From assembly GCA_007117455.1 (NCBI GenBank), contig SKGM01000009.1, forward strand, positions 1 to 40,540: 40,540 bases of DNA, read 5' to 3'. A program made the translations under genes and the position numbers. A model generated the notes under the pieces. The model was not told the origin of the DNA and made no database searches. It saw nothing but the letters and a program-made list of their open reading frames with translations. The stretch's first letter is position 1. The number at the start of each line of letters is the position of its first letter. Positions 4,162-30,022 of this stretch are shown piece by piece. The stretch comes from Candidatus Methanomethylophilaceae archaeon. GTDB lineage: Archaea; Thermoplasmatota; Thermoplasmata; Methanomassiliicoccales; Methanomethylophilaceae.

Positions 4162-4491
4162 TCAGCGGTACTTGCTGTAGCGGTCCAGAAGACGGCTCAC
4201 CCGGGAGTACTCCTCCTCGGTGAGTCCTTCTGCAGAAATGAAATCCTTGGCGTAGATCTTGGCGTCCTTTATGGATGTACGGGACGCCTTGGCGATTAGG
4301 CTTGCTAGGAATGAGTTCTGAACCGATGGATCCATGGCACTCTTCTCCAGGATCTCCTTCATATCGTACTTGAACGGCCCAATGCGACGGTTGCTCAGCA
4401 TTGACTGGCGCTTGCTGTCGCGGTTCTTCGGTTTAGCAGGGCTGAACTTTCGGGGAGGCCTCCTGGTAGAGTTTTTAGTATTCACACTCAA
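4162..4491 (-). CDS. Small basic protein of unknown function
   Basis: 109 aa. The first ~40 residues are strongly basic and probably disordered (many Lys/Arg/Pro/Ser), and the rest is predicted helical with a polar, Lys/Glu-rich character. This resembles small nucleic-acid-associated archaeal proteins, but no family is recognised. The TTG start at 4491 is chosen because GGAGT lies 8 nt upstream; GTG 4485 is an alternative. It heads the operon with the PPC protein and the COG3044 ATPase, and it shares a palindromic promoter region with the divergent deoxyribosyltransferase gene. Confidence 0.6.
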   Translation of the reverse strand: MSVNTKNSTRRPPRKFSPAKPKNRDSKRQSMLSNRRIGPFKYDMKEILEKSAMDPSVQNSFLASLIAKASRTSIKDAKIYAKDFISAEGLTEEEYSRVSRLLDRYSKYR

Positions 4492-4522
4492 AGCAATTAC
4501 TCCAATTGGCGGAACACATATC

Positions 4523-4536
4523 TTTAAGTACTTAAA
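4523..4536. promoter_or_regulatory. Perfect 14-bp palindrome, bidirectional TATA element
   Basis: TTTAAGTACTTAAA is its own reverse complement. Its centre is 23 nt before ATG 4553 on the plus strand (leaderless distance) and 39 nt before TTG 4491 on the minus strand. One element could therefore serve both divergent transcripts. Confidence 0.5.
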
Positions 4537-4552
4537 TCATTGCCCCCTAACC

Positions 4553-5014
4553 ATGACTGGACACCCCCGAACCATCTATTTGGCGGGGCCTCTCTTCTCG
4601 GATTCTGAGAGGAGGTTCAACGAGGAGGTCGCAGCCTTCCTTACCGCCCGAGGTCACCAGGTGATGCTGCCTCAGTTCTCCTGCCCGCCTTTCCATGAGA
4701 TGCTTGAATCGGGGATGTCCCCGTCCGAGGCCCTCAGAAAGGTCTTCGATGCTGACATGGACATGCTCAGAGGGTGTGACGTGCTCCTTTTCGTACTCGA
4801 TGGCAGGGTCCCGGATGAGGGGGCCTGCTTCGAACTCGGTTGGGCCTATGCCCATGGAATGGACCTTGTCGGCCTGAAGACCGATTCCAGAAGTTCCATC
4901 GAGGGGTTGGACAACGCCATGATAGCCGTCCCCTTGGAGGGCAGGATAGCCCATGACCTGAAGTCATTGGCCGATATCATAGACGGTCTCCAGGGCGGTC
5001 ATCGGGACAGATAG
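4553..5014 (+). CDS. Nucleoside 2-deoxyribosyltransferase family protein
   Basis: 153 aa. It begins with TIYLAGPLFSDSE, the YLAGPLF substrate-loop signature of the family. It carries DEGACFELGWAYA, in which the Glu of the (T/A)xFE(L/I)G motif is the usual catalytic nucleophile. Members transfer deoxyribose between nucleobases or hydrolyse (deoxy)nucleoside monophosphates, acting in nucleotide salvage or pool cleaning. Substrate specificity cannot be read here. The frame is open further upstream, but ATG 4553 fits both the family N-terminus and the leaderless distance from the palindromic TATA element. Confidence 0.85.
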   Translation: MTGHPRTIYLAGPLFSDSERRFNEEVAAFLTARGHQVMLPQFSCPPFHEMLESGMSPSEALRKVFDADMDMLRGCDVLLFVLDGRVPDEGACFELGWAYAHGMDLVGLKTDSRSSIEGLDNAMIAVPLEGRIAHDLKSLADIIDGLQGGHRDR

Positions 5015-5047
5015 AAATATGCGTCTCTACCATAGATGGGTGATATG

Positions 5048-5359
5048 ATGGTGGACATCGAGAACATCAAGGACATGGTGGAGTACCAGAAGGGCTCTGT
5101 GGTCAGCCGTACTGTGATCAAGAAGGATGTGGGCACGGTCACCCTCTTCTCCTTCGACAAGGATCAGGGCCTGAGCGAGCATAGCGCCCCATTCGATGCG
5201 TTGGTCAACGTCATCGATGGCAGGGCCGAGATCACGATAGGTGGGGAGCCCCATATGGTCTCCGAGGGGGAGATGGTCATAATGCCGGCGGACATACCCC
5301 ATGCCCTGAGGGCCATCGAACCATTCAAGATGATGCTGGTTATGATCCGACAGGCCTAA
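5048..5359 (+). CDS. Single-domain cupin protein
   Basis: A small (103 aa) one-domain cupin with the pattern SEHSAPFDALVNVIDG (first cupin motif) and MPADIPHALRA (second motif with His), typical of metal-binding stand-alone cupins of unknown substrate. Three in-frame ATGs lie close together (5036, 5045, 5048). GGGTGAT at 5038-5044 favours the last, though 5036 cannot be excluded. The gene converges on and overlaps by 4 nt the small helical protein gene downstream. Confidence 0.75.
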   Translation: MVDIENIKDMVEYQKGSVVSRTVIKKDVGTVTLFSFDKDQGLSEHSAPFDALVNVIDGRAEITIGGEPHMVSEGEMVIMPADIPHALRAIEPFKMMLVMIRQA

Positions 5360-5733
5360 CGTCTGAGATCGTCCATGAATCCCATGACATTGGTCACGCT
5401 CTTGGCCATAAGGCGGGCCAGCTCCTCCCATTCCACTTTTGCCAAAGGACTTTGCGGGTCACAGATGTGAAAGAGCATCCTGATCAGGGACTCCTTACCC
5501 TTCTCATCCTCATCCAACCATATGCTGCGGAGCGTGCTCTCCTCTTCGCTGCCTGAGGGGAATATGATCAAGAGGTTGTCGATGAGCCGATTGGTCATGT
5601 AGATGGTCTGTTGGTCGTCCATGCCCGAGTGTCGGGCCTCCTCGATCATGTTGCCTATGAAGAGCTTGGTCCTCTTCCAATCGTTCATGTCCCCATAGTC
5701 AGGCAGAGGCAGTTTATGGCGACCTTCCTTCAT
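5356..5733 (-). CDS. Hypothetical small acidic helical protein
   Basis: 125 aa, acidic and predicted all-helical, with no Cys cluster, membrane segment or recognised domain. ATG 5733 lies about 29 nt from a TTTTTAT element (5758-5765, minus strand), consistent with a nearly leaderless message. ATG 5748 would be only ~14 nt from it. The same T-rich stretch is the tail of the structured RNA immediately upstream, so the gene could also be read through from that RNA's promoter. No function can be assigned. Confidence 0.6.
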   Translation of the reverse strand: MKEGRHKLPLPDYGDMNDWKRTKLFIGNMIEEARHSGMDDQQTIYMTNRLIDNLLIIFPSGSEEESTLRSIWLDEDEKGKESLIRMLFHICDPQSPLAKVEWEELARLMAKSVTNVMGFMDDLRR

Positions 5734-5758
5734 GGTGACTAGATGCATAATTCAGGAT

Positions 5759-5965
5759 AAAAAGATGCGAGTGGTACAGGCTCATCCAAATGGGAAGAGG
5801 GCGCAGCCGTGGCCGGAGCGGCCGGACGGAATCCTCTAGGGGGATGGATCGAGCTCCGCCCTACGACTGCCCTTATCGATATAAGAGCCCTCTTCCCGAG
5901 ACGGACTCTTGCGCAGGCCGTTACGAGGGCCCGGCATACCGCCTCCAATCCTATCTCCACCCGCA
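5759..5965 (-). ncRNA. Structured non-coding RNA of about 205 nt, family not identified
   Basis: A GC-rich stretch between divergent genes folds only as the minus-strand transcript. The 5' end GCGGGTGG (5964-5957) pairs with CCACTCGC (5774-5767), and this stem is extended by ATAGG/CCTGT (5954-5950 with 5780-5776). An 11-bp perfect helix joins GGGAAGAGGGC (5897-5887) to GCCCTCTTCCC (5802-5792). Inside are a hairpin CTTAT-ATCG-ATAAG and a near-unpaired-base-free three-way junction (5863-5868 with 5805-5810; 5855-5861 with 5824-5830; hairpin 5811-5823). Several helices contain G-U pairs that would be A-C mismatches on the other strand, which fixes the strand. A TATA element centred near 5991 is 27 nt upstream of the 5' stem, and a U5 tract follows the 3' stem. 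Conserved RNase P and SRP motifs were looked for and not found. Confidence 0.62.
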
Positions 5966-5985
5966 ATGAAAACATCTCACGGCCG

Positions 5986-5996
5986 TTCTTAAATGC
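5986..5996. promoter_or_regulatory. TATA element between the structured RNA and the TrmB gene
   Basis: TTCTTAAATGC on the plus strand reads GCATTTAAGAA on the minus strand. On the minus strand a start ~26 nt downstream coincides with the 5' stem of the structured RNA (5964). On the plus strand a start near 6017 would precede the TrmB-like gene. Confidence 0.45.
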
Positions 5997-6035
5997 TTTA
6001 CGATGAGGGGCCGAAAGTAGGCGTTGATTCCAGCA

Positions 6036-6434
6036 ATGTTAAAAACCTATCCAGCCATTGCTAGGCACGATAACGTGAACATCCAGCATCTTCTGTCCGA
6101 CCAGGCGGGTTGCTCCGATGTCCTGAAATGCGCTTTCAGTCTCGGCGATCCTGAATTGGACGTGTACCGTGCACTGCTATCTAACGGGCCGATGCGCTCC
6201 GATGAGCTGGCCGACTTCATGGGAAAGGGGCCCTCCACGATATACCGCAGCCTGCAGAGACTGGTGTCCTGCGGCATGGTCTTAAGGGAATCCAGGAACA
6301 TTCCTGCGGGAGGTAGTTACTTCATCTACCGGGCGAAGGACAGGGAACAACTACGGGAGGAGGTGAGGGGCTGCATGGAGAGGATGATGGAGAGGGTCGA
6401 GAGGTTGCTTGACCGCTTCGAGGAGGATCTCTGA
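6036..6434 (+). CDS. TrmB-like HTH transcriptional regulator
   Basis: 132 aa. Residues ~36-100 form a winged helix of the TrmB/MarR type: LGDPELDVYRALLSNGPMRSDEL leads into a recognition helix with STIYRSLQRL. It is followed by a basic wing and a C-terminal helix rich in Met, Glu and Arg (coiled coil, probably the dimer interface). It lacks the large sugar-binding domain of TrmB proper. ATG 6036 is the first ATG after the TATA element; TTG 6024 and GTG 6075 are possible. Its stop overlaps the ATG of the aldo/keto reductase gene by 1 nt, so it is likely the local or autoregulator of that two-gene operon. Confidence 0.75.
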   Translation: MLKTYPAIARHDNVNIQHLLSDQAGCSDVLKCAFSLGDPELDVYRALLSNGPMRSDELADFMGKGPSTIYRSLQRLVSCGMVLRESRNIPAGGSYFIYRAKDREQLREEVRGCMERMMERVERLLDRFEEDL

Positions 6435-7573
6435 TGCGCTACCTTCCCTTCGGCCCAGAGGGCCGTCGGCTATCCGTCTTAGGTCTGGGATGCATGCGTC
6501 TTCCAGTTCACGGAGAGGGGTACTCCCCCATAGATGAGGAGGCATCCATCGCATTGCTCCGTCGGGCAGTGGACTTGGGCGTCAACTATCTGGATACCGC
6601 ACCGACATACCATGACGGCACCAGTGAGTCCTTCGTCGGGAAGGCGTTGTTGGGAGGTTACCGGGAAAAGGTCGCCATCGCCACCAAGATGAGTCGGAAA
6701 TGTGTCAGCTCCCGCGAGGAGTGCCGCGCCCTCATTCAGGACCAGCTGCGGAGACTGCAGACCGAACACATCGACCTCTATCTCCTGCACAATGTCACCA
6801 AGGACAGCTGGCGCTTCTTCGATGAGGTGGGCGCCTTGGACCTCATCGAGAGGGCCAGGGAAAGGGGGGAGTTGGGTATGGTGGGCTTCTCCAGTCATGA
6901 GGAGGCGGAGTTCTTCAAGGATCTGGTGGACGCTCATGACTGGGACTTCTGCCAGATACAGTTCAACTACGCCGATCGGTACATCCAGGCCGGGGAGTCG
7001 GGTTTGGAGTATGCTCGCTCCAAGGGATTGGAGGTCGTGGTGATGGAGCCTCTCAAGGGAGGCATGCTCGCCCGGGACGATCTCCCCTATATGCAGACGT
7101 TCAAGGACTCTGGCAGAGACTGGTCCCCGGCTGAGTGGTCCTTGCGTTGGATTTGGAACCGACCGGAGATTTCCGTCGTGCTGAGCGGCATGAACACCCT
7201 TGGACAGCTGGAGGAGAACTGCCGCGTGGCCATGGAAAGCGGCCCAGGCATGATGGGGGCTGAAGACCTGATGGTGATCGATCAGGCGAAGGAGGCATTG
7301 GATGAGGCGGTCAGTGTGGCCTGTAGCGGTTGCGCCTACTGCCTTCCCTGCCCCGAAGGGGTCAACATACCTCGGATGTTCACACTGTACAACAACCACG
7401 TGCTGGGCGGAGGGCACACCTGGGGGAGGAACATGTACAACTTCTCCACCGCTGCGGGGGAGAGGGCGGGTAACTGCATCTCGTGTGGTGAGTGCGAGGA
7501 ACGGTGCCCCCAGGACCTCAAGGTGTCCGAGCTCATGCCTCGGATACATGAGGAGTTGGGCTCTGACGGTTAG
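6434..7573 (+). CDS. Aldo/keto reductase family oxidoreductase with C-terminal [4Fe-4S] ferredoxin domain (COG1453)
   Basis: 379 aa. Residues 1-~280 are an aldo/keto reductase TIM barrel (start LGLGCMRLP, then NYLDTAPTYHDGTSE and IDLYLLHN). The C-terminal ~90 residues carry CSGCAYCLPCPEGVNIP and CISCGECEERCPQDL, enough Cys for two cubane clusters, as in the COG1453 group. The combination implies electron transfer between ferredoxin-like carriers and an unknown carbonyl substrate in the cytoplasm. Length is normal for the group. It is co-translated with the preceding TrmB-like regulator. Confidence 0.88.
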   Translation: MRYLPFGPEGRRLSVLGLGCMRLPVHGEGYSPIDEEASIALLRRAVDLGVNYLDTAPTYHDGTSESFVGKALLGGYREKVAIATKMSRKCVSSREECRALIQDQLRRLQTEHIDLYLLHNVTKDSWRFFDEVGALDLIERARERGELGMVGFSSHEEAEFFKDLVDAHDWDFCQIQFNYADRYIQAGESGLEYARSKGLEVVVMEPLKGGMLARDDLPYMQTFKDSGRDWSPAEWSLRWIWNRPEISVVLSGMNTLGQLEENCRVAMESGPGMMGAEDLMVIDQAKEALDEAVSVACSGCAYCLPCPEGVNIPRMFTLYNNHVLGGGHTWGRNMYNFSTAAGERAGNCISCGECEERCPQDLKVSELMPRIHEELGSDG

Positions 7574-29917: not shown

Positions 29918-30022
29918 TGGTGCGGGGGGTGGGATTCGAACCCACGAACCCCTACGGGACGGGATTTCCTACAAATCCTTCGTCTTAAGTCCCGCGCCTT
30001 TGTCCAGCTCGGCTACCCCCGC
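29918..30022 (-). tRNA. tRNA-Leu (UAA) with an 18-nt intron and encoded CCA
   Basis: The minus strand folds as a type II tRNA: acceptor GCGGGGG/CCCCCGC, D arm GCC-GAGCTGGACAAA-GGC, anticodon stem CGGGA/TCCCG with loop CTTAAGA (anticodon UAA), long variable arm with CCC-GTA-GGG, and T arm GTGGG-TTCGAAT-CCCAC. Discriminator A (29921) is followed by genomic CCA (29920-29918). An insert of 18 nt (29983-29966) interrupts the anticodon loop after position 37, the canonical archaeal site. The spliced tRNA would be 84 nt plus CCA. A TATA element (minus) ~26 nt upstream, near 30046-30056, fits the 5' end. Confidence 0.95.
29966..29983 (-). other. tRNA-Leu intron (position 37/38)
   Basis: The 18-nt insert lies between G37 and A38 of the anticodon loop. 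GGATTT within it can pair with AAATCC spanning its 3' junction, giving a compact hairpin that presents the splice sites to the bulge-helix-bulge endonuclease. Exact ends are ambiguous by one or two bases. Confidence 0.8.

Follow-up and report, generated by a model that had tools for sequence, protein, structure and literature searches.

Between the divergent genes for a TrmB-type regulator and a DUF3243-like protein, the window (the whole 40,540-nt stretch of DNA analysed here, a contig of an archaeal MAG that is 68% complete, with 1.14 Mb in 70 contigs) contains a site that had been proposed to encode a structured RNA on the minus strand. The locus raises two questions: is there an RNA gene here, and if so, what kind of RNA does it specify? 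The source belongs to Methanomethylophilaceae, a family within the order Methanomassiliicoccales. Few noncoding RNAs are known in this order, and our full-text literature search returned no paper on noncoding RNAs of Methanomassiliicoccales. The RNA and its flanking genes are placed as follows.

5356–5748, minus strand: gene for a DUF3243-like protein (Pfam PF11588), likely start ATG 5734, adjoining the RNA in 7/7 genomes
5767–5964, minus strand: structured RNA, ~198 nt from the first to the last base of its terminal stem, P1 (fold z-score, homologs in seven genomes, and a covariance model match)
6024–6434, plus strand: divergent gene for a TrmB-type HTH regulator (PF01978), adjoining the RNA at 7/7 loci

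A conserved fold on the minus strand

The minus strand from 5970 to 5755 folds with an MFE of −105.9 kcal/mol (z = −4.73; 0/200 shuffles were as good), compared with z = −1.51 for the plus strand of the same site. All of the elements described in the original prediction are present in the MFE structure: the terminal stem with its AUAGG/CCUGU extension, the 11-bp helix, the CUUAUAUCGAUAAG hairpin, and the three-way junction. The component helices are these.

5957–5964, minus strand: 5′ strand of P1, GCGGGUGG, pairing with 5774–5767 in the MFE structure
5767–5774, minus strand: 3′ strand of P1, CCACUCGC, from the MFE structure and cross-species duplexes
5898–5945, minus strand: hairpin arm P2, GAGGCGG (5945–5939) with CCGUCUC (5904–5898)
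5792–5897, minus strand: long arm P3, 11-bp helix of 5897–5887 with 5802–5792, and side hairpin UCUUAUAUCGAUAAGG
5870–5864 with 5809–5803, minus strand: P3 inner helix, GCAGUCG with CGGCUGC (alignment helices 3–5)
5857–5853 with 5819–5815, minus strand: P3 upper helix, GGAGC with GCUCC (alignment helices 3–5)

Homologs in seven genomes keep this fold. A DNA search of 41 relatives gave matches in each of the genus's six genomes and in G014, and a covariance model, R1, applied to 147 genomes of the order recovered the same seven and no others among the limited set of candidates scored per genome; its match in the window spans 5945–5792 and scores 154 bits. The carriers comprise the six genomes of the genus together with UBA9915, from one further genus of Methanomassiliicoccales, and in each of them the RNA is single copy and syntenic. 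No copy of the RNA was found in the viral contigs or the plasmids searched, nor in the TrmB and DUF3243 neighborhoods of other genera that we checked. A blastn match in G038 (locus L008) falls within the gene for A-type ATP synthase subunit A and was discarded as a chance similarity.

The proposal of a structured RNA gene on the minus strand is supported by these homologs, by the difference in folding between strands, and by compensatory changes. In the seven-sequence alignment 95.7% of cells are paired, and this falls to 44 to 54% when partners are slid by one to three columns. The original prediction had called for a test of covariation among relatives; in the seven genomes we observe 13 pair changes on both sides, versus 5.1 in shuffles (0/500), which is supportive and not formal proof because the sequences are related (n = 7, six from one genus). 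Pairing is complete in P2 (helix 1 of the alignment; 100% of cells), in which two pairs are changed on both sides, from A-U to G-C and from C-G to U-A, and the 11-bp helix of P3 is kept in 7/7 genomes, though two species each carry a single mismatch in it. P1 lies within the MFE structure of all seven species, and the prediction for this stem holds in part across relatives: four species have a strong stem, with duplexes of −20 to −23 kcal/mol (the window species, and G001, G005, and UBA9915, which keep it strong with P1 sequences that differ), and the other three, G002 to G004, a weak one (duplex −5 to −7 kcal/mol).

G-U pairs had been proposed as the mark of an RNA read from the minus strand, and this proved correct: there are 22 G-U cells versus 5 A-C cells (p = 7.6e-4, the cells not being independent), or 13 versus 5 counted by pair, an excess indicating that the minus strand is the RNA. 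Strand specificity is seen in the overall G-U/A-C bias; folding energy shows it clearly for the window, UBA9915, and G005, marginally for G001, and not at all for G004. No reading frame across the site is open in all species.

The apical loop, the promoter pattern, and the 3′ end

Two features that the original prediction did not contain are the near-invariance of one loop and a conserved element upstream of the promoter. The loop lies at the tip of the long arm.

5821–5846, minus strand: apical loop of P3, CAUCCCCCUAGAGGAUUCCGUCCGGC, 26 nt, proposed docking site

It is identical in 6/6 genomes of the genus, and one base differs in UBA9915. Averaged over sequence pairs, the loop is 97.9% identical, versus 81.8% for paired columns and 53% for the remaining unpaired columns, although the invariance is in part due to the close kinship of the sequences. 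Because selection is strongest there, the loop is likely the working part of the molecule. In 400 genomes of the class, a set that does not include the UBA9915 genome, no loop with three or fewer mismatches was found outside the genus. We note separately that a Clostridia MAG has an exact copy of the 26-nt loop (L037:1435–1462, minus strand) in a coding gene, where it encodes PPIPLEDSV; the host gene appears by eye to specify an HTH and S24/LexA-like repressor, and the RNA context is absent. This match covers just 26 to 28 nt of the loop and scores 12 bits, and we rejected it as a homolog; it is probably a coincidence, though an unlikely one for random DNA.

The sequences flanking the structure on either side are as follows.

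5988–5994, minus strand: TATA box ATTTAAG, read directly, ~27 nt before P1, with a BRE-like GTAAAGC just upstream
6011–6018, minus strand: conserved upstream element ACTTTCGG, 16–17 nt before the TATA box
5759–5763, minus strand: U5 tract, inside TTTTTATC, a TATA-like box ~20 nt before ATG 5734 of the DUF3243 gene

The TATA element was expected ~27 nt before the 5′ stem; it can be read in the window, and its position and spacing to P1 are equivalent at 7/7 loci. An independent noncoding RNA should have a promoter of its own, set at a constant distance from its structure, and such a promoter is present here as a sequence pattern. Each of the six genomes of the genus has the combination ACTTTCGG-N14-20-TWWAAG exactly once, at the RNA gene. 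ACTTTCGG is absent from the contig end read in G012, where TrmB is present and the RNA is not, so that in this one genome the element goes with the RNA and not with the regulator. Situated between the RNA and the TrmB gene on the opposite strand, ACTTTCGG may serve as a dedicated regulator site.

Two parts of the original prediction find no support in the homologs. The first was the U tract after the 3′ stem, which would suit a terminator, but U5 is not conserved and overlaps the TATA-like box of the DUF3243 gene; TTTTTATC, with an ATG ~20 nt on, looks like a leaderless promoter of that gene, and its counterpart in G002 to G004 is TATTTATC. No U-run directly follows P1 in G001 or G005. In UBA9915 a U7 follows the RNA, and the DUF3243 gene starts ~140 nt beyond it, behind a TATA-like box of its own. 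The second was a possible switch between two conformations, in which AAGAGUCC would pair with GGGCUCUU. Only in the window species does this alternative reach 8 bp, and when forced into it the window RNA is 14 kcal/mol less stable (−89.4 versus −103.5 kcal/mol for the MFE).

Known RNA families and the role of the RNA

The original prediction could not match the RNA to RNase P, SRP, box C/D, or H/ACA RNAs and asked for an Rfam search; no family among the Rfam models reaches significance with the window RNA, which supports a place outside those families. Separate SRP RNA genes are present in 6/6 genomes of the genus and RNase P RNA genes in 4/6. As guide RNAs the homologs were also rejected: box C (RUGAUGA) occurs in 0/7, CUGA occurs in 4/7 without a box C partner, and an ACA within the last 15 nt is seen in 0/7, the 3′ end of the RNA not being fixed. 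Archaeal SRP RNA (RF01857) and RNase P RNA (RF00373) resemble the window RNA in being stable, structured, singly encoded archaeal RNAs; they are a few hundred nucleotides long and work in ribonucleoproteins, but neither has a sequence or model match to the window RNA, and both occur elsewhere in the genus. A side observation concerns tRNA: positions 29921–30022 (minus strand) of the window match the Rfam tRNA model at 50.9 bits over 102 nt, against 71 model positions, and are not called by ARAGORN; this is probably an intron-containing tRNA gene.

The HgcC family (RF00062) and the Pyrococcus abyssi noncoding RNAs (PMC3124441) are independent, structured, intergenic noncoding RNAs of archaea. 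The window RNA is likewise an intergenic, structured archaeal RNA gene, but it belongs to another lineage and has no Rfam match; the HgcC model matched nothing but the unrelated locus L008, by chance and below threshold. Leaders of the riboswitch type share with it a three-helix junction, an invariant unpaired region, and a position upstream of a gene; the window RNA differs from them in having its own promoter pattern at P1 and a neighboring gene with its own TATA-like box.

We lean, with a modest degree of confidence, toward a structural noncoding RNA of ~200 nt that is transcribed independently, occurs in one small clade within Methanomassiliicoccales, and uses its invariant loop to dock a protein or ligand. 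Transcription would start at the 5′ strand of P1, from the BRE/TATA promoter with its dedicated upstream element, and the product, presumably stable, would fold into the three-way junction, with the long arm P3 displaying the 26-nt apical loop. One specific protein or ligand would then most likely dock on the loop, and the RNA would be the scaffold of a ribonucleoprotein. If the helices merely hold the loop, they are free to drift with compensatory changes.

The main rival is that the RNA is a cis-acting leader of the DUF3243 gene, a riboswitch or protein-responsive element with the junction and loop as the controlling aptamer. The combination of junction and invariant loop does resemble an aptamer, a transcript from the TATA box of the RNA could extend into the gene, and it is the fixed synteny, with the RNA directly upstream of DUF3243 and on the same strand in 7/7 genomes, that keeps this reading alive. 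However, at each locus DUF3243 has its own TATA-like box ~20 nt before the ATG, an arrangement expected of a leaderless mRNA; in UBA9915 the U7 and ~140 nt separate RNA and gene; G012 has AKR-TrmB and DUF3243 on one contig, separated by ~3.6 kb with intervening genes, and no RNA beside either; and neither an expression platform nor any conserved alternative pairing that would sequester the start site was found in the homologs. Given the layout of the promoters and the arrangement of RNA and gene in UBA9915, we prefer a structural RNA, and regard a leader as unlikely.

Rather less likely still is a trans-acting antisense regulator, whose exposed C-rich loop (AUCCCCCUAGAGGA) would pair with G-rich mRNA starts or rRNA. 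Some bacterial regulatory RNAs use C-rich loops as seeds, and a multitude of targets would suit the invariance of the loop. Yet its complementarity to 16S and 23S rRNA is no better than chance (the 23S was found by a conserved motif in L102, the window's own genome having no LSU), and the partial genomes searched, G001 over 1.36 Mb and G004 over 0.65 Mb, contain no extended complementarity. When the start regions of 426 ortholog pairs were compared against shuffled loops, gene starts had no excess of 8-nt matches and conserved 7-nt matches were no commoner than with the shuffled loops; moreover, the invariant 26 nt exceed the length that a seed needs. Size and stability would be of the right order for a diverged member of a known family (SRP, RNase P, C/D or H/ACA guide, or tRNA-like), but the lack of a significant Rfam family, the separate SRP and RNase P genes, and the unconserved C, D, and ACA boxes make this highly improbable. 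We give least credence, almost none, to a fortuitous hairpin or to an element that is coding or acts at the DNA level: GC-rich DNA folds well and ORFs of 65 to 78 amino acids cross the site in the window, but the frames are not conserved, indels are not multiples of three, and the reading is largely refuted by the compensatory changes and frame loss, alongside the G-U bias.

The RNA, whose transcription is predicted, adds a candidate to the RNA families that Rfam lacks; as a family it is real, uncatalogued, and narrow in distribution. That the outer arms vary while one tip stays constant suggests a working RNA not known before. More tentatively, at somewhat less than an even chance, we propose that it belongs to an undescribed class of archaeal ribonucleoprotein RNAs, restricted to a single branch of Methanomassiliicoccales, that have a specialised promoter element and bind a partner through the invariant loop. 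With a loop that is better conserved than its own helices, a promoter element of its own, and fixed synteny, this clade-specific RNA is a well-defined, testable object.

Neighboring genes and source genomes

The DUF3243 protein could be the partner of the RNA, yet it is present in G012, where no RNA was found. Its predicted fold is a helical bundle, with a weak match in sequence and fold to Bacillus subtilis YflH (3d0w), and the fold and similarity searches with this protein gave no hint of RNA binding.

The other MAGs bearing the element were deposited as Methanomassiliicoccaceae or Methanomethylophilaceae (PWNH01, PWJQ01, SKHQ01, PUJZ01, and PWHV01), together with UBA9915 (DUKW01). Several of these relatives appear from their isolate names to originate from soda-lake sediment (compare PMC6146748). 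The RNA and its two neighbors are also part of a larger conserved block, in the order AKR-TrmB, RNA, DUF3243, cupin, and deoxyribosyltransferase-like gene, that is present in the genus and in UBA9915 (4334–7573 in the window; L036–L042).
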